NCBI RefSeq assembly: GCF_900465345.1
Contig: NZ_UEGO01000013.1
Location: 1-64,000, forward strand
Length of the DNA: 64,000 nt
Source of the DNA: Asaia bogorensis
GTDB lineage: Bacteria; Pseudomonadota; Alphaproteobacteria; Acetobacterales; Acetobacteraceae
Reading direction: 5' to 3'
In this document: positions 33,323 through 61,462 of the stretch, in pieces
Numbering within the stretch: position 1 is the stretch's first letter
How the letters are laid out: every line of letters starts with the position of its first letter
Translations under genes and position numbers: made by a program
Notes under the pieces: generated by a model
Seen by the model: the letters and a program-made list of their open reading frames with translations, nothing else
The model's database searches: none
Told to the model about the DNA's origin: nothing

Positions 33323-33357
33323 ACACCCCAGAGACGGCGATCGTCTTTGGGGTGTTT
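33323..33357 (+). terminator. Hairpin terminator of the metal RND operon
   Basis: ACACCCCAGAGACG (33323-33336) pairs with CGTCTTTGGGGTGT (33342-33355) with one G-T pair and a 5-base loop; only a short T-run follows. Its place between the czcA-like stop and the dehydrogenase start fits a terminator or an attenuating hairpin. Confidence 0.65.
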
Positions 33358-33394
33358 GACGTTCCTCTGCCCAGGGCCAGGATGGAGAATCTCG

Positions 33395-34447
33395 ATGCTT
33401 TCCTGTATCGGTTATGGCGCACAAGGCGCCTCTGAGCGCCTCGCTCCCTTCAAGTTTGATCGTCGCGACACCGGTCCTGACGATGTCCGTATAGACATTC
33501 TCTATTGCGGCGTTTGCCATTCCGACATTCATCAGGCCCGCAATGAATGGCACAACACCATCTACCCCTGCGTGCCCGGCCATGAAATTGTTGGTCGCGT
33601 CAGCGAGGCTGGCGCGTCTGTCAGCAAGTTCAAGGTTGGCGATCTGGTTGGCGTAGGCTGCATGGTTGATTCTTGCCGCGAATGTGCCAGCTGCAAGGAA
33701 GGTCTCGAGCAATATTGCGAGGTCGGCTTTGTTGGCACCTATAATGGTGAAGACCGTCAGGGGCGCGGTATCACCTTCGGCGGCTACTCCAAGGCCGTAG
33801 TGGTCGATCAGGGATTTGTTCTCAAGGTTCCGGAGAACCTCGAACTCGCGGCTGTCGCGCCCCTGCTTTGCGCGGGTATCACGACCTACTCACCGCTCAA
33901 GCACTGGAAGGTTGGCCCGGGCCAGCGCGTGGGTATTGTCGGCCTTGGCGGGCTCGGCCACATGGCTGTTAAGTTCGCGCGGGCGTTTGGTGCCGAGGTC
34001 GTTCTGTTCACGACATCGCAAAGCAAGGTCGAGGATGGCCTGCGCCTTGGCGCGCATGAAGTTGTGCTCTCCAAGGACCCCGAAGCGATGGCGAAGGAAA
34101 CGGGTCGCTTCGACTTCATCCTCGATGCAGTGGCGGCCGATCATGACATCAACGCCTATCTTAACCTGCTTAAGCGCGAGGGAACGCTGGTTCAGGTAGG
34201 CGCTCCCGAGAATCCGCTTCCAGTCAGCGTATTCAGCCTGATCATGAAGCGCCGCAACTTTGCCGGCTCACTGATTGGCGGCATCGCCGAGACACAGGAA
34301 ATGCTGGATTTCTGCGGCGAGCATGGCATCACCTCGGATATCGAGATGATTGCGATGGACGAGATCGAAAATGCCTATTCACGCATGCTCAAATCGGATG
34401 TGAAGTATCGCTTCGTCATCGATATGGCGACGCTCGAAAACGCCTGA
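33395..34447 (+). CDS. Zinc-dependent NAD(P) alcohol dehydrogenase (YahK/cinnamyl-alcohol-type)
   Basis: 350 residues from ATG 33395 with GGAG seven bases before. Catalytic zinc ligands are in CGVCHSD (C38/C41 region) and GHE (H63, E64), structural zinc cysteines are C94, C97, C100 and C108, and the cofactor loop is GLGGLGHMAVKFA. This fits the YahK/CAD branch of medium-chain dehydrogenases, aldehyde reductases with broad range. It lies between the efflux operon and the tetritol locus, reading the same way as the former, and could be independent of both. Confidence 0.9.
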   Translation: MLSCIGYGAQGASERLAPFKFDRRDTGPDDVRIDILYCGVCHSDIHQARNEWHNTIYPCVPGHEIVGRVSEAGASVSKFKVGDLVGVGCMVDSCRECASCKEGLEQYCEVGFVGTYNGEDRQGRGITFGGYSKAVVVDQGFVLKVPENLELAAVAPLLCAGITTYSPLKHWKVGPGQRVGIVGLGGLGHMAVKFARAFGAEVVLFTTSQSKVEDGLRLGAHEVVLSKDPEAMAKETGRFDFILDAVAADHDINAYLNLLKREGTLVQVGAPENPLPVSVFSLIMKRRNFAGSLIGGIAETQEMLDFCGEHGITSDIEMIAMDEIENAYSRMLKSDVKYRFVIDMATLENA

Positions 34448-34539: not shown

Positions 34540-35355
34540 TCAGCAGATTTCGACGGGAATACCAGCGGCTTCAAGTTCTGACAGCGTATCGGATTTGATC
34601 TGGCTGTCTGTGAGAATACGGTCAAATTCCTGCAACGACGTCAGGCGATGCAGACCGCCCTGCCTGAATTTGGTGCTGTCCACCAGAAGCACGCATTTAT
34701 CCGCAATATCCATCAGGGCACGCTTGACCTTCACGACATCCTGATCGTTCTGGAAGGCCGTGTCCCCCGAGATCACGGAGGTGGACATGAACATGATATT
34801 GCCGCGCAGTGAGCGCGCAGCCTGCTCGCACACCAGCCCGAAGAACGCGTTGCGTGAGTTGCTGTAATCACCCCCAAGACAGATAATCTTGATACCGGGG
34901 AAAGGGGCCAGAGCCTGAACGACCCCGACCGCATTGGTAATGACCGTCAGCGGTGCCCGGGCAGGCAGCAACGGCAACATCTCGGCAACAGTGGTCGAGT
35001 CATCTAGAATAATGACCTGGCCGGGCTCAATCATCGACACGGCACGCTGGATGATCGCCTTCTTCAGATTGGCGGCGCGATGCTGACGATAGGCAACGTT
35101 TTTCTCGGTACGGGCACGGTTCTTGAGCGTGATGCCGCCATGAATCTTGTCAATCAGCCCCTGACTTGCCAGCGCATGGGCATCACGATGAATGGTCATA
35201 CGGCTGACATCGAAATGCTCCGCCAGAAACTCGATGCTCGCATTACCCTGCTCAAACAGCAGATCGAGAATCTGCTGCTGACGTGATTTCAGGTTCTGGC
35301 GCTTGATCCCGGAAAAACCGTCGAGCGCGGCTGCTGGCTTGGGGTCATCACTCAT
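34540..35355 (-). CDS. DeoR-family sugar-phosphate-responsive repressor (first of two)
   Basis: 271 residues: HTH near 27-80 (RQQQILDLLFEQGNASIEFL with SRMTIHRDAHAL and IHGGITL) and a C-terminal sugar-phosphate-binding domain with DDSTT and LGGDYS. It is divergent to the kinase gene at 35650, with a 294-base gap carrying candidate operators. DeoR proteins usually release DNA when they bind a phosphorylated pathway intermediate. A paralogue sits inside the operon at 41073; the two share the same domain layout, so they may divide control. Confidence 0.88.
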   Translation of the reverse strand: MSDDPKPAAALDGFSGIKRQNLKSRQQQILDLLFEQGNASIEFLAEHFDVSRMTIHRDAHALASQGLIDKIHGGITLKNRARTEKNVAYRQHRAANLKKAIIQRAVSMIEPGQVIILDDSTTVAEMLPLLPARAPLTVITNAVGVVQALAPFPGIKIICLGGDYSNSRNAFFGLVCEQAARSLRGNIMFMSTSVISGDTAFQNDQDVVKVKRALMDIADKCVLLVDSTKFRQGGLHRLTSLQEFDRILTDSQIKSDTLSELEAAGIPVEIC

Positions 35356-35417
35356 CTTGAAGAACTGCCTTTGACAGATTTTGCTTTGCTCCGATGGACC
35401 AAGCAGACCAATCGATA

Positions 35418-35584
35418 GATAACAAAAATATCACAAATATCTCATGCCAGCAAGAGAGGGGTGTGCCCCTGCGCGTGGCTTTCCCAACAAGGGCAACAAC
35501 TTGTCATCACGCTCAACAGGCAGTGATCGGCTTCTCGGTGACATGAACTGTATCATATATAGCACTACATTGTGATTATCGAAA
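35418..35584. promoter_or_regulatory. Regulatory gap between the DeoR gene and eryA with candidate DeoR sites
   Basis: The 294-base gap is markedly A+T-rich against its neighbours. On the minus strand it contains GTGATATTTTTGTTATC (around 35434-35418) and on the plus strand GTGATTATCGAAA (35572-35584). The decamer GTGATATTTT occurs again at 40219-40228, upstream of the second half of the locus. A motif shared by the two regulatory gaps of the locus is a fair candidate for the binding site of one or both DeoR proteins. No clear sigma-70 promoter is visible. Confidence 0.45.
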
Positions 35585-35649
35585 CATTTAGGGGCAGTTT
35601 AAGTCTTGTAGTCAGATCACCACCCCTCTTGCCAGAACGGAGCCTGGTC

Positions 35650-37371
35650 ATGAGCACAGGATATCTGATCGGGATCGATTGCGGTTCGTCGAGCGCCAAA
35701 TCTGTGATTTTCGCAACAGATGGCAGGATCGTCGGTCTCGGGCAGGCGCGCGTCGCCCAGATCACCGATACGCCGCGCCATGTCGAGCGTGATATGTCTG
35801 CTACCTGGCGCATCGTTGCGGGTACCATATGCGATGCGCTGGCCGATGCGGGGCTGACAGGTACCGATATCGCTGGCGTAGGGATCACTGCGCATGGTGA
35901 CGGGCTCTTCCTGCTCGACCGCGACCGGCAGCCACTCGGTCACGGCATCATGTCGCTGGACAGCCGCGCCTACGGTATTCATGACGGGTGGAAGCGCGAA
36001 GGGCTGCTTGATCGTCTGATGCCGGTAGCCGGGCAGCGCCCTTATCCGTACTCCGCCACCACGTTGCTTGCCTGGATCAAACGCCACGAACCCGAGCGTT
36101 TTGCTTCGATTGGAACCGTGTTTTTTGCAAAGGACTGGCTGCGTTACTGCCTGACCGGAGGGATCGCCACCGATCTCACAGAGGCCAGCACTGCCTTCAC
36201 AGACCTGCACAGCCAGACCTATAGCCCCGATATCCTCTCTGCGCTCGGTCTGTCGGAAATATCCGACGCCCTGCCACCCATGCTCGATTCATGCGCCCTG
36301 GCAGGCACGGTAAGCGCCGAGGCGGCGGCCCTGACAGGCCTTGCTGAGGGCACGCCCGTTTCCGCTGGCCTGCATGATGTAATCGCGGCCGCTGTCGGGT
36401 TGGGTCAGGTTCGCCCTGGTGACATGACCGTCACGGCCGGAACGTTCTCCATCAACGAGGTCCTGCGTGACCGCCCGGTGATCGGTACCGAGTGGGCCTG
36501 CCGCGCCGGCTATCGCAAGGGCTTGTGGAACTGCATGGCGATCTCGCCTGCGTCGGCCAGTAATCTGGAGTGGATGGCACGTTACGTGGCACCTGACGAC
36601 CCCGAGGCTGCTGCAAGGCTCATCGAGGCGACCATCGCGAAGTTTGCGACGGGCCGCACCGAGCGTCAGATACCGCTCTACCATCCCTACCTGTTTGGCT
36701 CCCCCTTCGAGACGCCCGCCACCGCTTCCTTCCTCGGCGTCCAGTCCTGGCACGACAGGGCCGATCTCTTCCGTGCGATGATCGAGGGCACGATATTCAA
36801 CCACCGCCATCACGTGGAGGATCTGCTGCAAACGGGAGGCGTGCGTCAGATCGGCATTTCGGGAGGAGGCAGCCGCCGCCCGGAAATTGGCCAGCTCTTT
36901 GCCGATATCCTCGGCCGCCCCGTCATGACGTCTCCCGTGAGAGAGGCCGGTGCCCTGGGCGCGGCCCTGACAGCTGCCGTCGCCTGTGGTCTCTCCCCTT
37001 CACTGGAAGAGGCCGTGGACGCGCTGAATATGCAGCCGCGTCATTTCGAGCCCGATGCCGCGCTCGCGCGATACTACGACGCCGTTTATGGCCGCTACCT
37101 CGCTATAGCCCGCGTGCTCGAACCCTTCTGGCCGTCCCTGCACAGCGATCAGGGCGATGACTACCCGAAGGCCGAGCCCCAGCACGAAAAGCTGCCTGAA
37201 GATCTGGCGGCTGACGCCACGAACTCACCAGCAATGCCCGGGAGCGGAAAGATTGCGCCTCCTCTCTCGGGGGCAGCAACAGCGTCAACCATCACACAGA
37301 CCATGACCGCGGCAATCGCCGCGACGCAAGCGCCTGTTGTCCAGATCGGTTCGATGCCTCTGCAACACTGA
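35650..37371 (+). CDS. eryA: FGGY-family polyol kinase, EryA-like (erythritol kinase)
   Basis: 573 residues from ATG 35650 (GGAG seven bases before). The FGGY fold is complete: the phosphate-1 loop IGIDCGSSSAKS at residue 7, GITAHGDGLFLLD near 90, substrate-domain GTFSINEVL near 285 and the adenosine segment GISGGGSRRPEIGQLFADILG near 420. I favour erythritol kinase (ATP + erythritol to erythritol-4-phosphate) because of its partners: EryB-like dehydrogenase, divergent TIM and RpiB. Xylulose or another polyol is not excluded. The last about 70 residues are Ala/Pro/Thr-rich and look like an unneeded extension. Confidence 0.78.
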   Translation: MSTGYLIGIDCGSSSAKSVIFATDGRIVGLGQARVAQITDTPRHVERDMSATWRIVAGTICDALADAGLTGTDIAGVGITAHGDGLFLLDRDRQPLGHGIMSLDSRAYGIHDGWKREGLLDRLMPVAGQRPYPYSATTLLAWIKRHEPERFASIGTVFFAKDWLRYCLTGGIATDLTEASTAFTDLHSQTYSPDILSALGLSEISDALPPMLDSCALAGTVSAEAAALTGLAEGTPVSAGLHDVIAAAVGLGQVRPGDMTVTAGTFSINEVLRDRPVIGTEWACRAGYRKGLWNCMAISPASASNLEWMARYVAPDDPEAAARLIEATIAKFATGRTERQIPLYHPYLFGSPFETPATASFLGVQSWHDRADLFRAMIEGTIFNHRHHVEDLLQTGGVRQIGISGGGSRRPEIGQLFADILGRPVMTSPVREAGALGAALTAAVACGLSPSLEEAVDALNMQPRHFEPDAALARYYDAVYGRYLAIARVLEPFWPSLHSDQGDDYPKAEPQHEKLPEDLAADATNSPAMPGSGKIAPPLSGAATASTITQTMTAAIAATQAPVVQIGSMPLQH

Positions 37372-37444
37372 CGCACCCGATCACGAACGACCGCTTTCGC
37401 TCAACCATGAAAATGCTCAAGACAATACTGGACCCGAACACCCC

Positions 37445-39127
37445 ATGACCCATTCTGCCGAACATCTCGACTCAGCCCATTTCGATGTGACGATCATCGG
37501 TGCTGGCATCAACGGGGTCGGCCTCTTTCGTGAACTGGCCCTTCAGGGCGTGAATGTCCTGCTCATCGAACGCGAGGATATCTGTGCGGGAGCCTCTGCA
37601 GCTCCTTCGCGCCTCATTCATGGTGGCATCAAATATCTTGAGACAGGGGAATTTCGTCTCGTGGCGCAGTCGACGCTCGAGAGAAACCTGCTGCTTCGCA
37701 ATGCCCCGCATCTGGTAACCGCCCTGCCAACGGTGATCCCGATTCACTCATGGTTTGGCGGCATCATCCCTTCAATCAAGCGGTTTTTCCGCCTCAAGAG
37801 CAAGCTTGCAGATCGTGGGGTCCTGATTACCGAGATCGGTATGCAGATCTATGATTTCCTGGGACGACGGGCCAGGGTGATGCCCCGCCATTCGCTCACG
37901 CTTGGAAAGAAAGTCCGGCAGAACTGGCCACATATGACCCGTAAGGTTATCGCAACCGGGCGCTATTACGACGCCGCCATTTCCCAGCCTGAGCGGCTAG
38001 GATTTGAATGTGTAGAGGATGCGCTCAAGCTGAATCTTGGTTGCGCCATCAAGACCTATAGCGAGGTCGAAGCATTCAGTGAGGGCACTCTGACCTTGCG
38101 CGACCGCCTGACCGGCAGCAAGGAGCAGGTACGGACCGACCTTATTGTAAATGCTGGTGGCGCGTGGATCGACAGCGTCAACGCCGCGCTGGGGCTGACG
38201 ACGCGCTATATCGGTGGCACCAAGGGGTCCCACCTCGTCATCCGTCACGAGGGCCTGCTGCGAGAACTCAACGGGCAGATGGTGTATTTCGGCACGGCCG
38301 ACGGACGTATCTGCCTGGCTTACCCCTTTCTTGGACACGTTCTGGTCGGGTCAACCGACATCCCCGTCAAGGATCCTGATACGGCGCGGTGCTCACAGGA
38401 CGAGCAAGCCTATATGCTGCGCATGCTGTGCGAACTGTTTCCCGGATTCACCATTAATGAAAGCGATGTGATCTATCGCTATTGCGGGGTCAGACCGCTC
38501 CCCGCCAGCAATGCTGATGACCCTGGTGCAATCAGCCGCGATCACATCATCCATACGGATTACGCAGGCATCACCCCTGTTCTGTCGCTCGTTGGCGGAA
38601 AATGGACCACATTCCGTGGATTGGCGGAAGAAGTGGCCGACAAGACGCTCTGCATGCTGCACAAAAAGAGAGCGTGCTCTTCGCGTCAGCGTCCTATCGG
38701 AGGGGGGACGAATTATCCGTCCGCGCGCAAGAAAGCTGCCTATCTGCGTCAGCTTGCCAGCAGACATGGCCTGACCGAGGCTCGTGCAGCCCTGCTGTTC
38801 GAACGCTATGGCACTACAGCGGAACGGGTGGCGGAATATTGTGCGCGAACGCCCGATGCGCCGCTCGCGAGCCTTCCCGAATACACACGCAACGAAATTC
38901 TCTATGTGGCAAACGAAGAACTCGTGCGCGGCGTCAACGATATTGTTTACCGACGCACGCCAATTGCCCTGCGCGGTGCGCTTAATCGCGCTGTCATCGA
39001 CGAGATATGCGCGCTTATCGCCACCCCGCTTGGCTGGTCGGAGGCTGAACGCATCACCCAGGCTGAAACATGCTGGCATATTGCGCGCGAACAGCACGGG
39101 GTGACCGACAGCCAGATCGCCGCGTAG
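37445..39127 (+). CDS. eryB: FAD-dependent polyol-phosphate dehydrogenase, EryB-like (GlpD family)
   Basis: 560 residues with the FAD fold IGAGINGVGLFRELAL near residue 18, SRLIHGGIKYLETGEFRLV near 60 and GGTKGSHLVIRH plus VGSTDIPV in the substrate half, as in glycerol-3-phosphate dehydrogenase GlpD. The GASAAPSRLIHGG segment differs from the SSRSSKLIHGG usual in GlpD, and the gene follows an EryA-like kinase, so erythritol-4-phosphate dehydrogenase feeding electrons to quinone at the membrane is the better reading. Glycerol-3-phosphate remains the alternative. Confidence 0.75.
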   Translation: MTHSAEHLDSAHFDVTIIGAGINGVGLFRELALQGVNVLLIEREDICAGASAAPSRLIHGGIKYLETGEFRLVAQSTLERNLLLRNAPHLVTALPTVIPIHSWFGGIIPSIKRFFRLKSKLADRGVLITEIGMQIYDFLGRRARVMPRHSLTLGKKVRQNWPHMTRKVIATGRYYDAAISQPERLGFECVEDALKLNLGCAIKTYSEVEAFSEGTLTLRDRLTGSKEQVRTDLIVNAGGAWIDSVNAALGLTTRYIGGTKGSHLVIRHEGLLRELNGQMVYFGTADGRICLAYPFLGHVLVGSTDIPVKDPDTARCSQDEQAYMLRMLCELFPGFTINESDVIYRYCGVRPLPASNADDPGAISRDHIIHTDYAGITPVLSLVGGKWTTFRGLAEEVADKTLCMLHKKRACSSRQRPIGGGTNYPSARKKAAYLRQLASRHGLTEARAALLFERYGTTAERVAEYCARTPDAPLASLPEYTRNEILYVANEELVRGVNDIVYRRTPIALRGALNRAVIDEICALIATPLGWSEAERITQAETCWHIAREQHGVTDSQIAA

Positions 39128-39165
39128 GCCGCCTGAGGTAGGATGCGCGGCTTGAGAGGACATTC

Positions 39166-40122
39166 ATGAACCGGTTCCGCCAGAAGCTTGCCCGTATGAG
39201 GGCCCAATGTGACACACGCGACGACTTTATTCTGGTCGATGCACGTGACGCGGATATGGCCGGCGGCATGTCCGCCTTCTGCCGCCCCGGTCAGGGGATG
39301 ATGACCAAGGCCGAGTTTCTGGCGGATATCCAGAATGTCGTGTCGCATGACCTGGTGGACATGGTTCTGGTATCGGTATCCACCCATGAGGATCTTTTGG
39401 CGTCGCACGTCACAACGCTGCGCGACATACAGCTTGCCGTGCGCGCCAATGACAGCTCGGACCTCTGGCGCATCCGCGCCGGCACCTATGAAAGCCAGAA
39501 ATCGCTGCCTTTCAGGACCGCTACGCTCGATCAGGCACTCTGCCATTTCGGCCTGTATTCGCTCACCTTCAATGGCGAGGCCAGCCACGATGTCATGGTT
39601 CTGGACCAGTTCCGGACCTTTCGTAGGGAAGCACGCGAAACGGGTTTCGAGTATTTTCTGGAGGTCTTCAATCCCAACCAGACGGATATCGATCCCGACG
39701 ATTTCGGCGATTTCCTCACCGACATGATCACACGCTGTCTGGCAGGAATGCGTCGTGACGAGATGCCGCATCTGCTGAAAATTCCGTTCAACACGACGGA
39801 GAGCCTGTCGTCCCTGTGCCGCTTCGACCCACGTATTGTGATTGGCATCATGGGAGGCGGAAGCGGCACCACACGCGACTGCCTGGAGCTACTCGGACAG
39901 GCGCAACAGGCAGGGGCAAGGGCCGCGCTTTTTGGTCGCAAGATCCTGCACGCCGAAGACCCGGTACTGATGCTCGGCATGATGAGAAGCGTGACCGATG
40001 GTGTTCTAACGCCTGCTCAGGCCGTGGAATTCTACCATCAGGGCCTCGCGGAACGAGGGATGACACCGCGTCTTTGTGTCCGTGACGATTGTGAGATCAC
40101 AGAATTACGGCTTTCAAGATAA
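39166..40122 (+). CDS. Class I aldolase-like barrel protein of unknown substrate
   Basis: 318 residues from ATG 39166 with GAGAGGA upstream. The pattern FILVDARDADM, MVLVSVSTHED, EYFLEVFNPN, HLLKIPFN, VIGIMGGGSGTTRDCLELL and GARAALFGRKI follows successive strands of a beta/alpha barrel like the DhnA/LacD class I aldolases. K205 in HLLKIPF sits where their Schiff-base lysine lies. It stands where eryC (a xylose-isomerase-type barrel) stands in rhizobial and Brucella erythritol operons but has no obvious likeness to it. It may be a functional substitute, or may split a tetrulose phosphate. Confidence 0.6.
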   Translation: MNRFRQKLARMRAQCDTRDDFILVDARDADMAGGMSAFCRPGQGMMTKAEFLADIQNVVSHDLVDMVLVSVSTHEDLLASHVTTLRDIQLAVRANDSSDLWRIRAGTYESQKSLPFRTATLDQALCHFGLYSLTFNGEASHDVMVLDQFRTFRREARETGFEYFLEVFNPNQTDIDPDDFGDFLTDMITRCLAGMRRDEMPHLLKIPFNTTESLSSLCRFDPRIVIGIMGGGSGTTRDCLELLGQAQQAGARAALFGRKILHAEDPVLMLGMMRSVTDGVLTPAQAVEFYHQGLAERGMTPRLCVRDDCEITELRLSR

Positions 40123-40192
40123 CATCAGGCATAAATCGTCAAACCGCTGAAACAATACAATATACTCCCAAAATCTGCCTTTTCGGTCAATC

Positions 40193-40228
40193 CGTTCATA
40201 TCAATGTGAACGATCAAAGTGATATTTT
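40193..40228. promoter_or_regulatory. Inverted repeat and shared motif before the tpi-deoR-rpiB part of the locus
   Basis: In the AT-rich 189-base gap, CGTTCA (40193-40198) and TGAACG (40207-40212) form a 20-base near-palindrome, followed directly by GTGATATTTT (40219-40228), which also occurs in the gap upstream of eryA. The block suggests a separate, regulated promoter for the downstream genes, but no exact -35/-10 pair is evident. Confidence 0.45.
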
Positions 40229-40311
40229 CTCTATAAAAATGTTAAAGCCTCCCATAGAGTAACATCAAGACGTTACGAACCGGCCGTCGTGCTGTGCAGA
40301 AAGAGGAAGCA

Positions 40312-41076
40312 ATGCCCCAAAAGTCGCTCTGGGTCGGAACAAGCTGGAAGATGAACAAGGGGCCAGGGGCTGCCCGCGACGCGGCTGCCCGAATTGCCGA
40401 CATGTTAGTGCCGGACAGGATTACCCCCTTCGTCATTCCCCCGTTCACCTCTCTCGAAACAGTAGCATCGCGTCTTCAAAACACGGCCTGGCATGTCGGT
40501 GCGCAGAACATGCACTGGGAGGAAGAGGGCGCATGGACAGGTGAAATTTCCCCTCGCATGGTGCGCGAGTGCGGGGCAGACCTGATTGAGCTGGGCCATT
40601 CCGAAAGACGGGAGCATTTCGGCGAGACCGATATCACGGTCAACCTGAAGGTCCGCGCCGCCATCCGTCACGGCCTGCGGCCGCTCATCTGCATCGGCGA
40701 CAGCGCCGAGGAATATGAGTTCAATGTGACGCACGAAACCCTGGCCCGTCAGACCAAGATGGCGCTTCACGGCCTGACATCGAATGAAATCGCCACAGTG
40801 CTTCTTGCCTATGAGCCCGTCTGGGCAATCGGCGCGAAGGGCAGGGCGGCCGAGCCGGATTTCGTCGATATCGCCCATAAGCGCCTGCGCCAGGTGCTGA
40901 TCGAACTCGTTGGAGAAGAGCAGGCGCGACGTGTGCCGCTTCTCTACGGTGGGAGTGTCTCGCTCGACAACGCCGCCCGCTACACGGCACTGAGCGATGT
41001 GGATGGTGTCTTCATCGGTCGTTCGGCCTGGGATCCCTCGGGGCTCGAAGCCATCATCAGGTCTGTTGCGTCATGA
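40312..41076 (+). CDS. Triosephosphate-isomerase homologue, EryH/LerI-like tetrulose-phosphate isomerase
   Basis: 254 residues with the three TIM catalytic positions: K13 in GTSWKMNKG, H96 in LGHSERR and E168 in LAYEPVWAIG. The first motif has SWKMN in place of NWKMN, so the conserved Asn of true TIMs is Ser, as I recall for the L-erythrulose-1-phosphate isomerase subgroup. Together with eryA, eryB and rpiB neighbours this suggests conversion between tetrulose phosphates rather than glycolysis. The start at 40312 is preferred to 40294 (AGGA upstream). It overlaps the next gene by ATGA. Confidence 0.75.
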   Translation: MPQKSLWVGTSWKMNKGPGAARDAAARIADMLVPDRITPFVIPPFTSLETVASRLQNTAWHVGAQNMHWEEEGAWTGEISPRMVRECGADLIELGHSERREHFGETDITVNLKVRAAIRHGLRPLICIGDSAEEYEFNVTHETLARQTKMALHGLTSNEIATVLLAYEPVWAIGAKGRAAEPDFVDIAHKRLRQVLIELVGEEQARRVPLLYGGSVSLDNAARYTALSDVDGVFIGRSAWDPSGLEAIIRSVAS

Positions 41077-41900
41077 GCGGCGCGACCGGGGTCGAGAGCA
41101 AGGCCGTCTCGGCCAGACGACGCGAGATTCTGGACTACGTGCTCGAAAACGGTGGCGCGCAGATCGAGGAACTGGTGGATCGTTTCTCGACCAGCCGCAT
41201 GACCATCCATCGCGACCTTCATGCCCTGTCCGAGCAGGGCCTGGTGCGCAAGGTGCATGGCGGTGTCACCATGCTGGCCAGCGGTGTAATGGAAACGAGC
41301 GTCGTCCATCGCATGCGCCGCGCCTCGCGCGAGAAACAGGCCATTGCCCGCCTTGCTGCAGGATTTATCAAGGCTGGCGATATCATCGCACTCGATGATT
41401 CCACCACCTCGCGCATCCTGTCTGAAAACCTGCCCTCGGGCATGCCTCTCACTGTGCTGACAAACAGCATGGGAATTGCCACGCAGATTGCGGGTGCACG
41501 CGATATCAGCCTGATATCGTTGGGCGGCAAATATCACCCCCGCTTCGATGCCTTTCTCGGCATCCTGTGCGAGCAGGGGACCAAATCACTCAGGGCCAAC
41601 ACGCTCTTCATGTCCGTCTCTGCCGTGCGCGATCTCGGTGCGTTCCATCAGGAGCAGGAGATCGTCAAGTGCAAGATGGCCCTCATGGAAATTGTCGATC
41701 GTCGCATCCTGATGATCGACAGCCAGAAATTCGATGTTACCGCATTGAACCGTCTGGCCAGCCTTTCTGACTTTGATGTCGTGATCACCGATTCAGGTGT
41801 GTCCGAAAGCCAGAAGAACCGAATGCTTGATGCTGGCATCAACCTGCATGTCGCCCATCTGGATGACGCAGTGCCCACCTCGCATTCTCCATCCCCCTGA
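41073..41900 (+). CDS. DeoR-family regulator (second, intra-operon)
   Basis: 275 residues: HTH domain near 15-65 (ILDYVLENGGAQIEELVDRF, then SRMTIHRDLHALSEQGL and VHGGVTM) and the sugar-phosphate sensor with DDSTTSRIL and LGGKYHPR. It begins inside the stop of the isomerase gene, so the two are coupled; this deoR-tpi-rpiB grouping recalls eryR-tpiA2-rpiB of rhizobial erythritol loci. It probably represses the transporter and second pathway half, sensing a tetrose or tetrulose phosphate. Confidence 0.85.
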   Translation: MSGATGVESKAVSARRREILDYVLENGGAQIEELVDRFSTSRMTIHRDLHALSEQGLVRKVHGGVTMLASGVMETSVVHRMRRASREKQAIARLAAGFIKAGDIIALDDSTTSRILSENLPSGMPLTVLTNSMGIATQIAGARDISLISLGGKYHPRFDAFLGILCEQGTKSLRANTLFMSVSAVRDLGAFHQEQEIVKCKMALMEIVDRRILMIDSQKFDVTALNRLASLSDFDVVITDSGVSESQKNRMLDAGINLHVAHLDDAVPTSHSPSP

Positions 41901-41922
41901 AACACGATCAAGGAAAACGATC

Positions 41923-42390
41923 ATGAAAATTGCAGTTGGTGGCGACAGCGCCGGTGAAGGTCTGGCCCAGCAGATCGTGGCCCATCTCAAGGCCAAGGGT
42001 GTCGATGCGGTCGATCTCTCGCGCCCCGTCGATGCGAAAAGCGAACTCTATTCCGAACTGAGCGAGCGCGTGGGTCACGCCATTCTCTCAGGCGAATATG
42101 AGCGCGGCATCCTGTGCTGCGGCACCGGTATCGGGGTTGCGATTTCAGCCAACAAGATCCCTGGTATCCGCGCAGCTCAGGCTCACGATGCGTATTCGGC
42201 CGAGCGCGCCGCCCTGTCGAATAATGCCCACATCATCACACTGGGCGCACGTGTCGTCGGGGCCGAGCTGGCCAAGACGATTGTCGATTCCTTCCTTGCA
42301 AAAGAATTCGACCCGGCGAGTGCTTCCAAGAAGAACGTCGATGGCATCGATGCTCTCGACAAGAAGTATTCGCCAAACGCCTGCAAGTAA
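41923..42390 (+). CDS. RpiB/LacA/LacB-family sugar-phosphate isomerase (EryI/DerI-like)
   Basis: 155 residues starting MKIAVGGDSAGE, with the catalytic cysteine C66 in ILCCGTGIGVAISANK and the histidine in NNAHIITLGARV. RpiB-type enzymes interconvert aldose and ketose phosphates through an enediol; in Brucella and mycobacterial tetritol pathways the homologue turns D-erythrulose-4-phosphate into erythrose-4-phosphate. The context supports that here rather than ribose-5-phosphate isomerisation. AAGGA precedes the start. Confidence 0.85.
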   Translation: MKIAVGGDSAGEGLAQQIVAHLKAKGVDAVDLSRPVDAKSELYSELSERVGHAILSGEYERGILCCGTGIGVAISANKIPGIRAAQAHDAYSAERAALSNNAHIITLGARVVGAELAKTIVDSFLAKEFDPASASKKNVDGIDALDKKYSPNACK

Positions 42391-42422
42391 TGGATTAACA
42401 CGACCACATAAGGTCTGATTTC

Positions 42423-43349
42423 ATGAAAAAAGTCCTGCTCGCTACCGCATCCCTCCTTCTCGCTCCGTTGGCCGCTCATGCGGCCCCGGAGAACGGGCCG
42501 ATGCGTTTTGTCATGATACCGAAAGCCGTGCATCCCTGGTTCGACAAGGCCAATAATGGTGCCCAGTCGGCTGCCCAACTGCTCAGCAAGGCAACCGGGC
42601 GCACCATCACGGTGGAATATCGTGCACCGCAAACGGCCGATGTCTCGACCCAGAACGACATCATCGAACGGGCCATTGCGACACATCCTGATGGCCTGAT
42701 CCTCGATCTTCTCGATGAGAAGGGCAATCGCTCGACCATGCAGGAAGCGGTTGACGAGAAGATCCCGATGACGGTGTTCGACTCCCTTCCTCCCGAAGGC
42801 ATGGATATCACGGCAGTCGGGGCGGATTTCTGCGAGCAGGGCACGCTGGCCGCCGAACGGCTGGCCAAGCTGATTGACCACAAGGGCGAGGTCGCCATCA
42901 TGATGGGTGTTCCAACCGCCCCCAATCATGCCTTGCGCGCCCGTTGTGAACTCAAGGTTTTTGCCAAATATCCCGACATCAAGGTCGTTGCTACGGGCAT
43001 CGACAATGACAGCATTGAAACGGCTCAGAAGCAGGCTTCGGCCATCATGCAGGCCCACCCCAATCTTGGCGGCTGGGTCGCCTGTGATGCGGCCGGCCCC
43101 GTGGGTATCGGCCAGGCCATTCGCGAGAGCGACAAGGTGGGCAAGGTCAAGGAAGTCGGGCTCGATAACCTGAGTGACATGCTCCAGCTCATCAAGGATG
43201 GCGTGGTGGATTCCTCCGCATCGAGCCGCCCTGAAATGCAGGGCTACTGGGCCGTAATCGCTGCCTGGCAGAAGGCGATGGGCCAGCAGACGCCCAAGAA
43301 CATCGATACGGGCATCGACATCATCACCAAAGCGACTCTCTCCAAGTAA
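42423..43349 (+). CDS. Periplasmic sugar-binding protein of an RbsABC-type importer
   Basis: 308 residues with a clean signal peptide (1-21, ending AAHA) and a Peripla_BP_4 fold: MRFVMIPKAVHPWF at the start, ADFCEQGTLAAERLAKLI and GGWVACDAAGPVGIGQAI in the second half. Proteins of this group carry pentoses, polyols or autoinducer-2. It is the first gene of a binding protein-ATPase-permease set in the tetritol locus, so a C4 polyol or ketose is the best guess for the ligand. Confidence 0.88.
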   Translation: MKKVLLATASLLLAPLAAHAAPENGPMRFVMIPKAVHPWFDKANNGAQSAAQLLSKATGRTITVEYRAPQTADVSTQNDIIERAIATHPDGLILDLLDEKGNRSTMQEAVDEKIPMTVFDSLPPEGMDITAVGADFCEQGTLAAERLAKLIDHKGEVAIMMGVPTAPNHALRARCELKVFAKYPDIKVVATGIDNDSIETAQKQASAIMQAHPNLGGWVACDAAGPVGIGQAIRESDKVGKVKEVGLDNLSDMLQLIKDGVVDSSASSRPEMQGYWAVIAAWQKAMGQQTPKNIDTGIDIITKATLSK

Positions 43350-43366
43350 GCGATGGGAGCAGGGCC

Positions 43367-44872
43367 ATGGTCCTTCTCAAGGCAACAGGCATACGAAAGA
43401 CCTATCCGGGTGTCGTAGCGCTTGACCATATCGACCTGACCCTGGAACCCGGCAAGGTGCATATCCTTGCCGGGGAAAACGGGGCGGGCAAATCCACCCT
43501 CATCAAGACTCTTTCCGGCCTGGTCAGACCCGATGAAGGGACATTGGTGATTGACGATGCCGATGCCCTTCACGACCACAGGCTTTTCCGGCGGGTGGCC
43601 TATGTTCCCCAGGAACTCAATCTCTTCCCCTACCTGACCGTTGCGGAAAACATGTTCATGCCGTTCGCCCGCTCGGGCTTCGGCACAGTCACCGTTTCCG
43701 AAAAAGCCATGGAGGCCAAGGCCGCCGAGTATATCGCGCGTTTTGGCATTCATGCGCGCCCCGATCAGAAGGTCGCCGAAATCAGCGTGCCCGATCAGCA
43801 GCTCTTGCAGATTGCCCGCGCGGCCACACAGGAAGATTTCGGGGTCATGATCCTCGATGAGCCGACCTCATCGCTGACAGCCCGTGAGACAGAACAGCTT
43901 TTCCGTATCGTCTGTGATCTGCGCGACCGGGGCGTGGCCATCGTGTTCGTCTCCCACAAGATGGAGGAAATCTTCTCGCTGGGCGATACGGTCACCGTGC
44001 TGCGCAATGGTCGCAGCGTTGGCAGTTTCCCGATGGAGGGCATGACCGAAAACGAACTGATCCGCCTGATGTCGGGCAGTACGGTCAAGCTGGACGAACA
44101 ATTCCAGTCCGATCCGGCCTCTCGCACGGGCGAGACAATCCTCAAAGTGGAGAATTTGTGCGGGCCCGGGTTCGAGGATATCTCCTTCGAATTGAAAAAA
44201 GGCGAAATCCTCGGCTTTGCGGGACTGGTTGGCGCAGGCCGTTCCGAAATCATGCAGGCCATGTTCGGTTTCCGCAAAGTCCGGAGCGGCCAGGTGATGC
44301 TCGATGGAAAGGTCATCGCCCCCAACAGGCCCGATAAAGCCGTCAAGGCCGGGATGATCTACCTCTCTGAAGAACGCAAGCATCACGGTATCTTCCCGAT
44401 GCTCAGTGTGCGCGAAAACATCGCGCTTGCTGTCACCGATGACATCTCCACGGGCGGGCTGATCTCCCCCAGGCGGGAGAAAGAGATCGTCCGTGAGATC
44501 ATCCAGCGTTTCGATGTCCGCACCTCGTCAGCGGCGAAGAAGATCATGTTTCTTTCTGGCGGCAACCAGCAGAAAGCAATCATCGGCCGCGCCATGGCAC
44601 GCAAGCCTCGCCTGCTCATATTCGATGAGCCGACGAAGGGCATTGATATCGGCACCAAGTTCCAGATCTACCGGATCATGCAACGCCTTGCGGAAGAGGG
44701 CGTCGGGATCATTCTCGTCTCGTCCGAAATGAACGAATTGCAGCGTTGCGCCACGCGCATCATCACCCTCTATTCCGGCCGTATCAACGGTTCCTTCGAG
44801 CACGACAAGACGGATGTCAGCACGCTGGTCGCCTCGATCATTGGCTCACCGGAGACCAGACATGTCGCATGA
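43367..44872 (+). CDS. Sugar ABC transporter ATPase with two nucleotide-binding domains (RbsA-like)
   Basis: 501 residues, two ABC domains in tandem. The first has Walker A GENGAGKST near residue 39 and Walker B VMILDEPTSSL near 160. The second has the altered Walker A GLVGAGRSE typical of the C-terminal half of RbsA-type proteins, with signature LSGGNQQK and Walker B LLIFDEPTKGID. It energises the adjacent permease. The 3' end overlaps the permease start by 11 bases. Confidence 0.94.
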   Translation: MVLLKATGIRKTYPGVVALDHIDLTLEPGKVHILAGENGAGKSTLIKTLSGLVRPDEGTLVIDDADALHDHRLFRRVAYVPQELNLFPYLTVAENMFMPFARSGFGTVTVSEKAMEAKAAEYIARFGIHARPDQKVAEISVPDQQLLQIARAATQEDFGVMILDEPTSSLTARETEQLFRIVCDLRDRGVAIVFVSHKMEEIFSLGDTVTVLRNGRSVGSFPMEGMTENELIRLMSGSTVKLDEQFQSDPASRTGETILKVENLCGPGFEDISFELKKGEILGFAGLVGAGRSEIMQAMFGFRKVRSGQVMLDGKVIAPNRPDKAVKAGMIYLSEERKHHGIFPMLSVRENIALAVTDDISTGGLISPRREKEIVREIIQRFDVRTSSAAKKIMFLSGGNQQKAIIGRAMARKPRLLIFDEPTKGIDIGTKFQIYRIMQRLAEEGVGIILVSSEMNELQRCATRIITLYSGRINGSFEHDKTDVSTLVASIIGSPETRHVA

Positions 44873-45884
44873 ACCCTCAACGCTTCCCCAGCCCGATGGC
44901 GCAGCGGTCGCGGCAGCCCCCGGCGCGGGCGCCCGCATCAAGGCTCTGGCGGCCAACCCGCTCTGCGGTGTGATCGTGGCGCTGGTAGTCATCTTTGTGC
45001 TGTCCTGCTCGCTGTCATCTCACTTCCTGACCGCGTTCAACATGAAGATCATTGCGCGCTCGCTGGCTTTCGTGGGGCTCGTCACGATCGGTCAGGCCAT
45101 ATTGATGATCCTCGGTGAGCTAGACCTCTCCGTCGGTGCCATTGGTGGCCTCGCCGGGGTGGCAGGTGGCCTGCTCATGGTTCAGGCAGGCCTCGACCCG
45201 TGGCTTTCCCTCATTCTCTGCCTCGCGCTCGGAACGGGGTGCGGATTGCTCAATGGCCTGCTCATCACCAGGCTGCGCCTGCACTCCCTGGTGCTGACCA
45301 TCGGCATGGCCGGTGTCTATGGAGGCGCCAATCTGGTGCTCACCAAGGGCGTCGCCATTACCGGGATCCCGAGTGATATCGGTTTCCTTGGCCGAGGCAT
45401 GATGTTCGGGCTGCCCGTACCCTTCGTGATCCTGCTCGTCTGCCTTGCGATCGTGTCCTTCGTCATGATCCGCACCCCGCTGGGGCGCTATGTCTATGCC
45501 ATTGGCAGCAATAATGCCGCTGCACGGATGCTTGGCATCAGGGTAGACGCCATTCGCGTCTGCGCTTTCGCAACGGCAGGCTTCCTTTCCGCACTGGCAG
45601 GTATCGTGATGGTTGCCCGCCTCGGGACAGCCCAGCCTTCCATTGGCGATACCTGGGTGCTTGCCCCCATTGCAGCGGCCGTTATCGGCGGTGTCGCCAC
45701 GACAGGCGGCCTTGGCAGCCCATTCGGTGCCGTGCTGGGCGCGGTCATCATAGGCATTATCGAGAACGTCATCGTGCTGTTCGGCATTTCGCCCTACTGG
45801 CAATCGATCGTCAGCGGCGGGATCGTCGTTGCCGCCATTTCCTTCGACTCAATCGCAAGACGCTATTTCAACCGCGAGGCCTGA
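44862..45884 (+). CDS. Sugar ABC transporter permease (RbsC-like)
   Basis: 340 residues from ATG 44862, inside the end of the ATPase gene. About 35 polar N-terminal residues are followed by eight to ten membrane helices with the RbsC motifs ILGELDLSVGAIGGLAG and AIGSNNAAARMLGI, the loop touching the ATPase. It forms the inner-membrane channel of the importer. A frame open to 44814 is not used. Confidence 0.93.
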   Translation: MSHEPSTLPQPDGAAVAAAPGAGARIKALAANPLCGVIVALVVIFVLSCSLSSHFLTAFNMKIIARSLAFVGLVTIGQAILMILGELDLSVGAIGGLAGVAGGLLMVQAGLDPWLSLILCLALGTGCGLLNGLLITRLRLHSLVLTIGMAGVYGGANLVLTKGVAITGIPSDIGFLGRGMMFGLPVPFVILLVCLAIVSFVMIRTPLGRYVYAIGSNNAAARMLGIRVDAIRVCAFATAGFLSALAGIVMVARLGTAQPSIGDTWVLAPIAAAVIGGVATTGGLGSPFGAVLGAVIIGIIENVIVLFGISPYWQSIVSGGIVVAAISFDSIARRYFNREA

Positions 45885-45945
45885 CAGGGGGCCCCTGCGG
45901 GGGTCACCCAGTGCCTTCATCGCGGACCCTATCGAGGATATCTTC

Positions 45946-47667
45946 ATGACCAAGATCTGTGGTGACGCCGAGAATTTCGCGACATCGGCCCTGCGTGGCT
46001 TTGCCAGCCTCTATCGCGACATCGTCCAGCCGGTCCGTGGCGGCGTACTGCGCAGTCAGCCCGGTGCCAAGGGCAAGGTGGCTCTGGTGGTCGGTGGCGG
46101 GTCCGGGCATTTCCCGGCCTTCAACGGCTATGTCGGCACCGGCTTTGCGGATGCCGCTGTAGCGGGCGACGTCTTTGCTTCGCCCTCTACGCAGGCCATT
46201 TTGCGCATCGCCCGGCAGGCCAATCTGGGTGGCGGCGTTGTCCTCGGCTACGGCAATTACGCTGGTGACGTGCTGAACTTCAGTATCGCCGCAGAACGCC
46301 TTCGCGCCGAGGGGATCGATGCCCGGATGATCGCCACGACAGACGACATCGCAAGCGCCCCTGCCGAGGAGGCCAGCAGACGTCGTGGCACGGCAGGCGA
46401 CGTACCTGTTTTCAAGATCACGGGGGCTGCGGCCGAGGCAGGTCTCTCCCTCGACGAGGTCGAGGCGGTGGGCCAGCGTGCCAATGCGCGTACCCGTTCT
46501 TTCGGTGTGGCGTTCGACGGGTGCACCTTGCCTGGTGAAACCGAGAAGCTCTTCCATGTCCCGAATGGCCGTGTTGCGCTCGGCCTTGGTGTTCATGGAG
46601 AGCAGGGCATTGATGAGCAGGATCTCATGCGCCCCGAAGCGCTGGCTGCCATCCTGTGCGAGCGTCTGCTGAAGGAAGCACCCCCGAAGGCGGGATCGCG
46701 CATCACGGCGCTGCTGAATGGCTTGGGCGGGACGAAATATGAAGAGCTTTTCGTGCTGTGGGAAGCGATCATCCCCTATCTCGAAAATGCCGGATATACC
46801 CTGGTCGCACCCATCGCCGGGGAATACATCACCAGCCTTGATATGGCCGGATGCTCACTGACCATCACATGGCTCGATGAAGAGCTCGAGCGTTTCTGGT
46901 GTGCCCCGGTGGATAGCGCGGCATTCCGCCGCAACGCGGTGACCCGCGTGCAGGATCATGCCCTGTCGGTGCTGACAGATGCCCCGGCCGTTTACATGAA
47001 ATCCCTTACCGATGCCGGACGCGATGGCGGTCGCTGTGTGGCCTCCATCATGGTCAAGCTCTCACACGCCCTGACAGAGGCCGAGGCCGAGCTTGGGCAA
47101 ATCGACGCTCACGCGGGCGATGGCGACCACGGACAAGGAATGGCCCGTGGGGCGGCTGCTTCGGCCAAGGCCGCACTGGCCGCTGTTGAGGCCGGGGCGG
47201 GCCCTGCGACAGTGCTCGCAGCGGCAGCAGATGCCTGGGCGGATCGTGCCGGCGGCACATCGGGCGCCTTGTGGGGGGCAGGGCTGTTCGCCTTCAGCAC
47301 AGCCTTCGATGATTCTGCCGTGCCCGATGCCCAGAGCCTTTCGACCGGCCTGCGTCGCGCAATGGAAAAGATTACAGCCCTTGGCAAGGCGAAGCCGGGT
47401 GACAAGACCCTTATGGATGCTCTGGTCCCCCTCGTGGAACGCTTCGAGCAGGGCCTGCGCCAGGGAGAGAATGTCTCGAAAGCCTGGAACGAAGCCGCCA
47501 AGGCATCAACCACCGCAGCCGAGGCGACGAAAGACCTCCTGCCGCGACTGGGTCGCGCACGCACTCATGGCGAGCGCAGCAAAGGCTATCCTGACGCTGG
47601 TGCAATTTCCATGGCGCTTAGTGCCCGTGTCGTGGGTGAGGCGCTTGCCTCGCTCGCTGTGAAGTAA
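45946..47667 (+). CDS. One-chain ATP-dependent dihydroxyacetone/erythrulose kinase (DhaK-DhaL)
   Basis: 573 residues from ATG 45946 (GAGGA upstream). Residues 1-335 are the DhaK domain with GGGSGHFPA near 50 and the histidine that binds the ketone carbonyl, H217 in GLGVHGEQG. Residues 370-573 are the ATP-binding DhaL domain with Mg-binding D387, D392 and D394 in IDAHAGDGDHG. It phosphorylates short ketoses such as dihydroxyacetone; related one-chain enzymes (LerK, DerK) phosphorylate L- or D-erythrulose. The locus suggests an erythrulose role. It closes the operon, before a terminator. Confidence 0.83.
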   Translation: MTKICGDAENFATSALRGFASLYRDIVQPVRGGVLRSQPGAKGKVALVVGGGSGHFPAFNGYVGTGFADAAVAGDVFASPSTQAILRIARQANLGGGVVLGYGNYAGDVLNFSIAAERLRAEGIDARMIATTDDIASAPAEEASRRRGTAGDVPVFKITGAAAEAGLSLDEVEAVGQRANARTRSFGVAFDGCTLPGETEKLFHVPNGRVALGLGVHGEQGIDEQDLMRPEALAAILCERLLKEAPPKAGSRITALLNGLGGTKYEELFVLWEAIIPYLENAGYTLVAPIAGEYITSLDMAGCSLTITWLDEELERFWCAPVDSAAFRRNAVTRVQDHALSVLTDAPAVYMKSLTDAGRDGGRCVASIMVKLSHALTEAEAELGQIDAHAGDGDHGQGMARGAAASAKAALAAVEAGAGPATVLAAAADAWADRAGGTSGALWGAGLFAFSTAFDDSAVPDAQSLSTGLRRAMEKITALGKAKPGDKTLMDALVPLVERFEQGLRQGENVSKAWNEAAKASTTAAEATKDLLPRLGRARTHGERSKGYPDAGAISMALSARVVGEALASLAVK

Positions 47668-55076: not shown

Positions 55077-55170
55077 GATCACATTCCTTGCAACGATGCG
55101 TCCGGCACATTGAAAGTCGGCACCAGACGCGGCCAAGCAAAGACGGTGCAGATGGCCTTGTCGATCAGAG

Positions 55171-56112: not shown

Positions 56113-56162
56113 GAGCAGAGGGTGACGGCTTTGCTGCCCTCTGTCACCTCACAACCTTACCG

Positions 56163-57632: not shown

Positions 57633-57745
57633 GAGCGACTATCCTTGCCTGCGCCTCAACGGGCGCAGATCACGGTCACACGGCCTGCCGCCCAACCCCA
57701 CGCAGGCTTTTCGCTGCGTGGTTCCAGGCGCTGTTCTGGCGCTGC

Positions 57746-58726: not shown

Positions 58727-58804
58727 GGGGGAATGTCCTATTTCTGCAAGAGAGTCGGGGGTCCGACCCGATTGACGGGTCGATTTGAATGTGGCGCGCC
58801 GTTG

Positions 58805-59611: not shown

Positions 59612-59714
59612 GCGGAAACTCCCGGTCGATCAGAAAAGTGAATACGATGCGGTGCGATGAGGCCCGGACTCACAACAGTCCATGCGAAGGCCATGATCGC
59701 GTATCTGGGGCTCT

Positions 59715-61130: not shown

Positions 61131-61462
61131 GATGCCTCCTCCACGCTTTGGAGAACCGCTGTTGCGAGGCCGCCAATGCGGCCCGGTCTGGTTGTCGACA
61201 TGAGATCGAGAAGGGTCATCACACACCGCCTGGCTACACTCCGTCGGACCCTCCCTTGCCAATTTAGATCGGTCTAAATGAGCGATCAGGGAATTGAACC
61301 TGTGGGGAAGGGCTACCTTGGAAGGGAAGAATCTGTCGGAACTAACAAATCTGTAATGACTTTGAACGCCATTCCGGAGAAGAAGTCACACATAAAATGT
61401 GAAACATCTTTCACTCCTGTGTGATATCTCGTGAAAAACGGCGGATAAAATCACGCAGCGCC
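61131..61462. other. 332-base regulatory gap between lacI-type gene and transporter gene
   Basis: The gap is A+T-richer than its neighbours. Apart from the palindrome at 61263-61278 it holds a segment near 61390-61435 with TTCACTCCTGTGTGATATCTCGTGAAA-like symmetry that is too loose to call. No gene is evident. Confidence 0.5.
61263..61278. promoter_or_regulatory. Candidate LacI-family operator upstream of the transporter gene
   Basis: TTTAGATCGGTCTAAA has perfect inverted arms TTTAGA and TCTAAA around a 4-base centre, the size and symmetry usual for LacI-type operators. It lies about 130 bases before the transporter start and 185 bases after the end of the LacI-type gene, where the promoter of the catabolic block is expected. 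Confidence 0.55.

Follow-up and report, generated by a model that had tools for sequence, protein, structure and literature searches.

A conserved operon of Asaia bogorensis and related Acetobacteraceae with a predicted role in C4 sugar or polyol use around L-erythrulose-1-phosphate

Within a window of 64,000 nucleotides from Asaia bogorensis (the whole stretch analysed, from contig NZ_UEGO01000013.1; source genome of 3.38 Mb in 43 contigs), we identified a locus of eleven genes at 34540-47667 whose constitution suggests an operon for the use of C4 sugars or polyols. A DeoR-family regulator on the reverse strand (DeoR1; 34540-35355; PF00455 and PF08220 over cut-off) is divergent to an FGGY-family kinase (35650-37371; PF00370/PF02782), which is followed, likewise on the forward strand, by a GlpD-like flavin adenine dinucleotide (FAD) dehydrogenase (37448-39127; PF01266/PF16901), an aldolase-like gene that we refer to as ALDO (39166-40122), and a triosephosphate isomerase (TIM) homologue resembling LerI and EryH (40312-41076). 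The remaining forward-strand genes encode a second DeoR-family regulator identified by Pfam (DeoR2; 41073-41900), an RpiB-family isomerase resembling DerI and EryI (41917-42390), an importer comprising an RbsB-like substrate-binding protein (42423-43349; PF13407), an RbsA-like ATP-binding cassette (ABC) ATPase (43367-44872; assigned from its open reading frame (ORF), translation and conserved order) and an RbsC-like permease (44862-45884; PF02653), and a LerK-like DhaK-DhaL fusion kinase (45946-47667). All eleven had been named in a preliminary description of the window, and ORFs, Pfam and NCBIfam place each of them in the frame given there.

The gene order FGGY-GlpD-ALDO-LerI is kept in all 11 named Gluconobacter and Komagataeibacter loci and extends to LerK in eight of them, locus genes in relatives being mechanical ORF calls throughout. 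These 11 loci, like those of Ameyamaea (G017) and G030, were found through ALDO, and those of G016 and G020 through LerI, such that the presence of the respective gene is by construction. The complete order, from the divergent DeoR1 through FGGY-GlpD-ALDO-LerI-DeoR2-DerI-RbsB-RbsA-RbsC to LerK, was recovered in G005, G030 and each of the three Komagataeibacter loci. Among the eight Gluconobacter loci, five retain FGGY through LerK (with a DeoR2 match in one and not in the other four), and three consist of FGGY-GlpD-ALDO-LerI-DeoR2 alone. The operon is real and conserved beyond chance.

Sequence comparisons lend good support to a predicted conversion of L-erythrulose to erythrose-4-phosphate by the LerK-like kinase, LerI and DerI, and we consider this LerK-LerI-DerI route very probable. 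The top Protein Data Bank (PDB) match of LerI is an L-erythrulose-1-phosphate isomerase (11ef; E 1.4e-69), ahead of a triosephosphate isomerase (E 1.5e-50), and the protein is 48.8% identical to TpiB of the Rhizobium johnstonii ery cluster vs 36.7% to the other TIM of the source genome; identity and PDB match thus both place it with EryH/TpiB of the ery locus. DerI is the sole RpiB-family match in the source genome and is 58% identical to R. johnstonii RpiB; its best NCBIfam model is that of DerI itself (NF051858), on which it scores 232.5 bits, below the cut-off of 240, and R. johnstonii RpiB 257.7 bits. The kinase exceeds the cut-off of NF011049 (708.7 vs 492 bits) and carries the motifs GVHGE and DGDHG, which we take to be those expected of DhaK-DhaL kinases; L-erythrulose is its predicted substrate because of the partner genes. 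These assignments bear out the preliminary description in its C4 locus with LerI and DerI homologues, its LerK-like kinase and its convergence on erythrose-4-phosphate.

The superfamily memberships would equally suit an ordinary glycerol or dihydroxyacetone locus, with LerK as a dihydroxyacetone kinase and the FGGY-GlpD pair acting on glycerol. The linkage of LerI and DerI, the two further DhaK-DhaL genes of the source genome and FGGY scores far below the GlpK model cut-offs render this extremely improbable. That the L-erythrulose set is a self-sufficient module is supported by G009, where DeoR2-DerI-RbsBAC-LerK-LerI is present and the stretch read has no FGGY, GlpD or ALDO. The binding protein is 25% identical to EryG and 61% identical to one from Salipiger whose gene accompanies a DhaK-DhaL gene. 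An RbsBAC-DhaKL set was also observed in Shinella sp. H4-D48 (L171 3196-7606), its binding protein about 61% identical to the window RbsB, with genes for an FGGY kinase, YjbQ, a small triose-phosphate isomerase, a TIM barrel and short-chain dehydrogenases/reductases (SDR) nearby. For apionate, considered and set aside as a context of rhizobial LerK homologues, none of the barrels nearby had an NCBIfam match at E<=1e-15, and a literature search gave no lead. As for a source of the substrate, one passage of PMC9171043 describes the conversion of meso-erythritol to L-erythrulose by acetic acid bacteria, and another passage gives L-erythrose.

The preliminary description had further taken the FGGY kinase and the GlpD-like dehydrogenase for eryA and eryB, an assignment that their divergence does not sustain. 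The window FGGY is 27.4% identical to R. johnstonii EryA vs 44.0% to a second FGGY kinase (FGGY2) on the same plasmid, and the GlpD-like protein 28.0% identical to EryB vs 49.3% to a second GlpD (GlpD2). This plasmid, pRL12, carries an ery operon (kinase, GlpD, TIM barrel, SorC-type regulator, DeoR, TIM and RpiB) beside a second DeoR-FGGY-GlpD set (L039 8992-12310), which adjoins eryEFG and has a class II fba gene on the other strand; the names eryA, B, C, D, R, tpiB and rpiB were assigned here from the arrangement given in the accessible part of PMC3599248. Phylogenetic trees group the window FGGY and GlpD with the second pair, Shinella, Carnimonas and other Acetobacteraceae, leaving EryA and EryB outside, in trees that hold several long branches that meet and whose distant joins are unsure. 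By identity and by tree, then, neither protein is an orthologue of EryA or EryB. At its C-terminus, the window kinase also carries an Ala-, Thr- and Pro-rich tail of some 75 residues that extends past the region alignable with its relatives.

Nor is an eryC gene supported: the R. johnstonii EryC query found no match in the source genome and none in any of the nine Asaia genomes. The same query does detect its own gene on pRL12 and, at 76%, a match in G030, and it matched five of 60 relatives at E<=0.001 (three at 73-80% identity and two at 23-26%). Neither operon regulator is an EryD of the SorC type, both being DeoR by Pfam, the rest of the genome not having been searched for EryD. A Brucella-like action of the pair as EryA and EryB on erythritol, to which the shared superfamilies and the same partners LerI and DerI would point, is therefore very unlikely in view of the identities, the trees and the missing EryC; G030, moreover, has true EryA (60%), EryB (70%) and EryC (76%) elsewhere in its genome in addition to this operon. 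Two known routes are thus not simply merged here, as had been proposed; the polyol branch appears to be a different pair, for which we found no description.

True eryDABC-EFG loci, 55-80% identical to that of R. johnstonii, were observed in the Acetobacteraceae relatives G030 (L176), G009 (L183) and G033 (L184). That of G033 carries its own TpiB. For G009 and G030, the stretch read, 19.9 kb with roughly 5 kb of flank on either side of the genes, holds neither tpiB nor rpiB. As the only TIM matches in G030 are the operon LerI and a second at 36%, its ery locus probably relies on the LerI and DerI of the operon described here.

For the second-clade pair, we read 23 Acetobacteraceae FGGY-GlpD loci, comprising eight from Asaia (the genus having been searched with FGGY, which matched in eight of nine genomes), G016 and G020 (through LerI), and 13 reached through ALDO, namely G017, G030, eight from Gluconobacter and three from Komagataeibacter. 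LerI lies in the same locus as FGGY-GlpD in 23 of 23, or 21 of 21 without G016 and G020. ALDO adjoins GlpD in 15 of 23, or two of 10 once the loci found via ALDO are dropped. Outside this family, R. johnstonii, Sinorhizobium sp. B11 and Carnimonas have a pair of the same FGGY-GlpD clade next to EryEFG, an importer of the erythritol type. According to the relevant part of PMC10733421, D-erythrulose-1-phosphate must pass through EryC before LerI can use it, so that, with EryC absent, a pair feeding LerI in Asaia must yield the L form. Given its constant association with LerI in Acetobacteraceae, the pair most likely makes L-erythrulose-1-phosphate without an epimerase; to the more specific claim that it does so from a tetritol we give an even chance.

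ALDO, located between GlpD and LerI, matched no Pfam family at E<=0.001. Its nearest sequence matches are weak, to LsrF-type aldolases, and its 23.3 bits on NF006081 (cut-off 297) do not identify it as a class I dihydroxyacetone phosphate (DHAP) aldolase by sequence model. Both results qualify the aldolase-like barrel of the preliminary description. Relatives of ALDO were found in 13 of 100 relatives searched and number at least 560 in one scan of genome contigs, of which the best 80 were analysed; among 40 plasmid rows listed, all that are annotated are "hypothetical protein". An AlphaFold model built from 37 sequences predicts a confident barrel (predicted local distance difference test (pLDDT) 92.1, predicted template modelling score (pTM) 0.91), for which Foldseek returned 392 matches at E<=0.001. 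All of the best 50 listed are aldolase-type (beta/alpha)8 barrels, at about 12-16% identity for the best matches, and those listed include LsrF, archaeal fructose-bisphosphate (FBP) aldolase, Methanocaldococcus jannaschii ADH synthase, tagatose-1,6-bisphosphate aldolase and Slackia FBP aldolase.

Residue K205 of ALDO, the predicted Schiff-base lysine, is invariant among the aligned relatives, and local alignment by hhalign puts it on K203 of LsrF (E 3.6e-6, single comparison), presumably the catalytic lysine of that enzyme. An hmmsearch alignment sets K205 one residue off K203, and global alignment gave no correspondence; the LsrF structure 4p2v has Ala at the K203 position. Position 27 is Arg only in the window ALDO and its 98% relative and Lys in the rest of 23 aligned relatives. 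From the AlphaFold model, the Foldseek matches and the aligned lysine, the modelled fold of ALDO is that of a class I DHAP-type aldolase, and we regard it as likely that the protein is a DHAP-forming lyase of some kind. The class II Fba annotated beside the R. johnstonii ery genes was considered as its counterpart and rejected, as ALDO has a class I fold.

Genomic neighbourhoods of the best 80 ALDO relatives, counted by tblastn, revealed a kinase set within 4.5 kb in 71; some of these loci had themselves supplied the queries for PfkB, Khk and lyxose isomerase. The sets comprise FGGY with GlpD (14), PfkB or ketohexokinase (54) and DhaK-type kinases (four, one shared with FGGY and GlpD). Of the nine loci without such a set, L120 and L125 are located at the end of a contig, and in L130 and L136 GlpD and FGGY stand a little farther upstream. 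In 44 of the 75 loci with room for one, ALDO is followed immediately by a PfkB gene on the same strand. Where both flanks are full, any such kinase occurs within 2.5 kb in 43 of 48 loci vs 5 of 48 at 5-7.5 kb, a distance at which PfkB alone occurs in none of the 48. In an ORF map of these 80 loci, an overlapping ORF displaced ALDO in 22, and cluster c4 of that map probably runs antisense to PfkB.

Among the neighbours of ALDO in Pelagicoccus, Coraliomargarita and Botrimarina are the D-lyxose isomerase and ketohexokinase-type clusters, each assigned from a single representative. Genes for D-lyxose isomerase and a prokaryotic ketohexokinase beside the ALDO relatives L118, L141 and L150 of Verrucomicrobiota/Planctomycetota suggest that these phyla have a ketose-1-phosphate route. 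A literature search yielded nothing on a bacterial ketohexokinase with a lyxose isomerase or a xylulose-1-phosphate aldolase. Across these settings, the partner genes of ALDO could plausibly generate a ketone adjacent to a CH2 group that bears a phosphate, the structure that a DHAP aldolase cleaves.

Taken together, these findings are compatible with a C4 sugar and polyol operon built around L-erythrulose-1-phosphate, a model that, as a whole, we hold to be as probable as its negation. Two ways in would meet at this intermediate. By the first, well supported by sequence, RbsBAC would import L-erythrulose and LerK phosphorylate it. By the second, FGGY would phosphorylate a tetritol and the GlpD-like enzyme would oxidise it next to the phosphate, giving L-erythrulose-1-phosphate directly, such that the EryC epimerase would not be needed; on chemical grounds, fitting substrates may be L-threitol, or erythritol phosphorylated at the end opposite to that used by EryA. 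One way out, likewise well supported by sequence, would lead through LerI and then DerI to erythrose-4-phosphate. By the other, ALDO may split a ketose-1-phosphate-like compound into DHAP and a small fragment, an exit that would be optional, since some relatives hold the rest without ALDO. In its most specific form, ALDO would be a natural erythrulose-1-phosphate aldolase releasing DHAP and formaldehyde; together with LerI and DerI, it would parallel in nature the engineered erythrulose monophosphate (EuMP) module, and FGGY-GlpD would be a phosphorylate-first route from L-threitol or opposite-end erythritol without EryC; this combination we consider unlikely.

Several observations weigh against the model built around L-erythrulose-1-phosphate. 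Apart from the score of DerI below its model cut-off, Shinella L033 and Carnimonas L112 have no LerI in the stretch read, so that FGGY-GlpD need not feed LerI everywhere, and the complete ery locus of G030 makes erythritol a less likely FGGY substrate there. Six Asaia relatives have no ALDO in the operon, each with one homologue (ALDO') elsewhere, and no ALDO match was found genome-wide in G016 or in G020, the latter genome being 86% complete; the role of ALDO next to LerI is therefore not an essential one. In five Asaia relatives, the sequence between GlpD and LerI contains only chance-level pieces of ALDO (best E 0.11). ALDO', 50-55% identical to the window ALDO, is located in these six relatives in an operon of the order LysR-DenD-OtnI-like-ALDO'-DhaKL, a D-erythronate-type setting that points to another reaction. 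Ameyamaea carries the same operon plus a separate ALDO next to GlpD. In all seven loci (L020-L026), ALDO' holds the place of OtnC and DhaKL that of OtnK. In A. lannensis the DenD and OtnI-like parts form one frame of 662 amino acids.

Since OtnC is a 3-oxo-tetronate-4-phosphate decarboxylase, and two aldolase folds are known for OtnC enzymes (both from the accessible part of PMC12540250), decarboxylation to DHAP and CO2 is a serious rival reaction for ALDO. Extended to the window operon, FGGY would phosphorylate a C4 acid (erythronate or threonate), GlpD would oxidise C3 and ALDO would decarboxylate the resulting 3-oxo-tetronate-4-phosphate. Consistent with such a route, the DenD of A. lannensis scores above the cut-off of the D-erythronate dehydrogenase model (349.2 vs 325 bits), the window ALDO groups with Carnimonas and ALDO' (99/78 in one tree of 12 rows), apart from the Gluconobacter and Komagataeibacter ALDO, and the eight Asaia genomes with FGGY have exactly one ALDO each, in one place or the other. 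A tetronate route has, however, no place for LerI and DerI; a further DenD locus exists in all nine Asaia genomes, source included, and other ALDO relatives accompany ketose-forming genes, such that we judge it decidedly improbable for the operon as a whole. Another role for ALDO, in the stead of EryC as an erythrulose-1-phosphate 3-epimerase acting via an enamine on its lysine, would account for the missing EryC and for the position between GlpD and LerI, and the fold would permit Schiff-base chemistry. It is nevertheless very doubtful, because FGGY-GlpD-LerI occurs in G016 and G020, where searches recovered no ALDO and no EryC, and ALDO relatives occur in loci without LerI.

The organization of non-coding sequence bears on whether the model of one operon around L-erythrulose-1-phosphate should be divided. 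Two blocks in the DeoR1-FGGY intergenic region (35356-35649), 5' of FGGY, are kept in eight aligned Asaia/G016 sequences. Between GlpD and LerI, blastn aligns only a block of 42-84 bases (window 40196-40278, 5' of LerI) in five of five Asaia relatives. The core of this block, CATATCAATGTGAAC, is unchanged across 10 of 11 aligned sequences, G016 and G030 from two other genera being included, with one substitution in the eleventh. Conserved blocks before both FGGY and LerI suggest that the locus probably comprises two transcription units, with one DeoR gene each. DeoR2 and DerI are whole in three genomes with damage elsewhere: FGGY and GlpD appear broken in A. prunellae (L068), FGGY appears broken in G007 (L186), and LerI and LerK are in pieces in G006 (L180), where a genome-wide search for FGGY gave nothing better than a 29% match and the stretch read contains no GlpD. 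These broken genes may represent decay or draft-genome errors.

Separate blocks and two DeoR genes would suit two neighbouring pathways, with FGGY-GlpD-ALDO serving another polyol (e.g. a pentitol, via a pentulose-1-phosphate to DHAP and glycolaldehyde) and LerI to LerK serving L-erythrulose. Such a division would also fit the retention of DeoR2-DerI where FGGY and GlpD (in A. prunellae and G006) or FGGY (in G007) are broken or lost, the arrangement importer-FGGY-DeoR-GlpD-ALDO in Shinella L033, with no LerI in the stretch read, and the company of ALDO elsewhere with lyxose isomerase and ketohexokinase genes. LerI nonetheless accompanies FGGY-GlpD in every Acetobacteraceae locus read, even without ALDO, and an erythritol-type importer stands beside the same pair in three other genomes; we therefore consider two separate pathways unlikely.

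Upstream of the locus, a zinc alcohol dehydrogenase gene (33347-34447) was considered as a pathway member and rejected as plain synteny. It adjoins the locus in 10 of 22 stretches searched, from eight Asaia genomes and G016, staying there even where FGGY and ALDO are gone, and was found in none of the 12 stretches from other genera. Further downstream, on the reverse strand at 54087-62485, the window contains a second catabolic-looking cluster, identified by eye, of LysR, porin-like, 2-hydroxyacid dehydrogenase, hydratase-like, major facilitator superfamily transporter and LacI genes, with a xylose-isomerase-like barrel (PF01261) as the sole member named by Pfam.

Our literature search, with subscription papers mostly outside its reach, found no publication describing this operon. 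The survey of 19 species by Geddes et al. 2013 (PMC3599248) gives Acidiphilium loci without eryC and tpiB, and the accessible part of its text makes no mention of Acetobacter. With the ery locus of Brucella and rhizobia (eryABCD, eryEFG and eryR-tpiB-rpiB), the window operon shares a kinase and GlpD-type dehydrogenase, homologues of TpiB/EryH and RpiB/EryI, a DeoR regulator, an ABC importer and erythrose-4-phosphate as predicted end product. It differs in an FGGY and GlpD of another clade, in lacking EryC and EryD, in an importer that is not EryEFG-like, and in the addition of a DhaK-DhaL kinase and a class I aldolase fold. The LerK-LerI-DerI tetritol route of Mycobacterium smegmatis, reportedly described by Huang et al. 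2015, has in common, by gene type, the DhaK-DhaL kinase, the TIM-type LerI and the RpiB-type DerI, whereas the FGGY-GlpD phosphorylate-first branch and the aldolase-like gene are additions of the window. EltD, the erythritol/L-threitol dehydrogenase, is not among the eleven operon genes, the genome not having been searched for it. ALDO resembles the family of LsrF, archaeal class I FBP aldolase and ADH synthase in its barrel fold, in the alignment of K205 with LsrF K203 and in the expected DHAP-type Schiff-base chemistry, and stands apart in its low identity and in having no sequence model over cut-off.

Setting this second kinase-dehydrogenase clade apart from EryA and EryB matters because superfamily-level annotation would confuse the two, and an uncharacterised class I aldolase-like family gains a testable role. 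The D-erythronate/L-threonate pathway (DenD/LtnD-OtnI-OtnK-OtnC), as presented in the accessible part of PMC12540250, shares with the ALDO family a relative at the OtnC place in six Asaia relatives and Ameyamaea; the window operon differs in having no DenD or OtnI gene, and ALDO in being neither Aldolase_II nor F_bP_aldolase, the OtnC domains. The engineered EuMP module, so far as given in the available text of PMC10733421, likewise combines a DHAP aldolase with LerI and DerI, whereas the window presents a natural operon with a class I fold instead of FucA/RhaD and without EryC. The Discussion of that 2023 paper regards an erythrulose-1-phosphate aldolase co-occurring with these isomerases as particularly interesting, in that it might show a natural EuMP cycle, and notes that an aldolase yielding the L form would make EryC unnecessary. 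A natural aldolase-like gene together with LerI and DerI might thus reveal a formaldehyde-assimilating cycle or such an enzyme, and the operon of A. bogorensis is a candidate, and only that, for the co-occurrence sought there.

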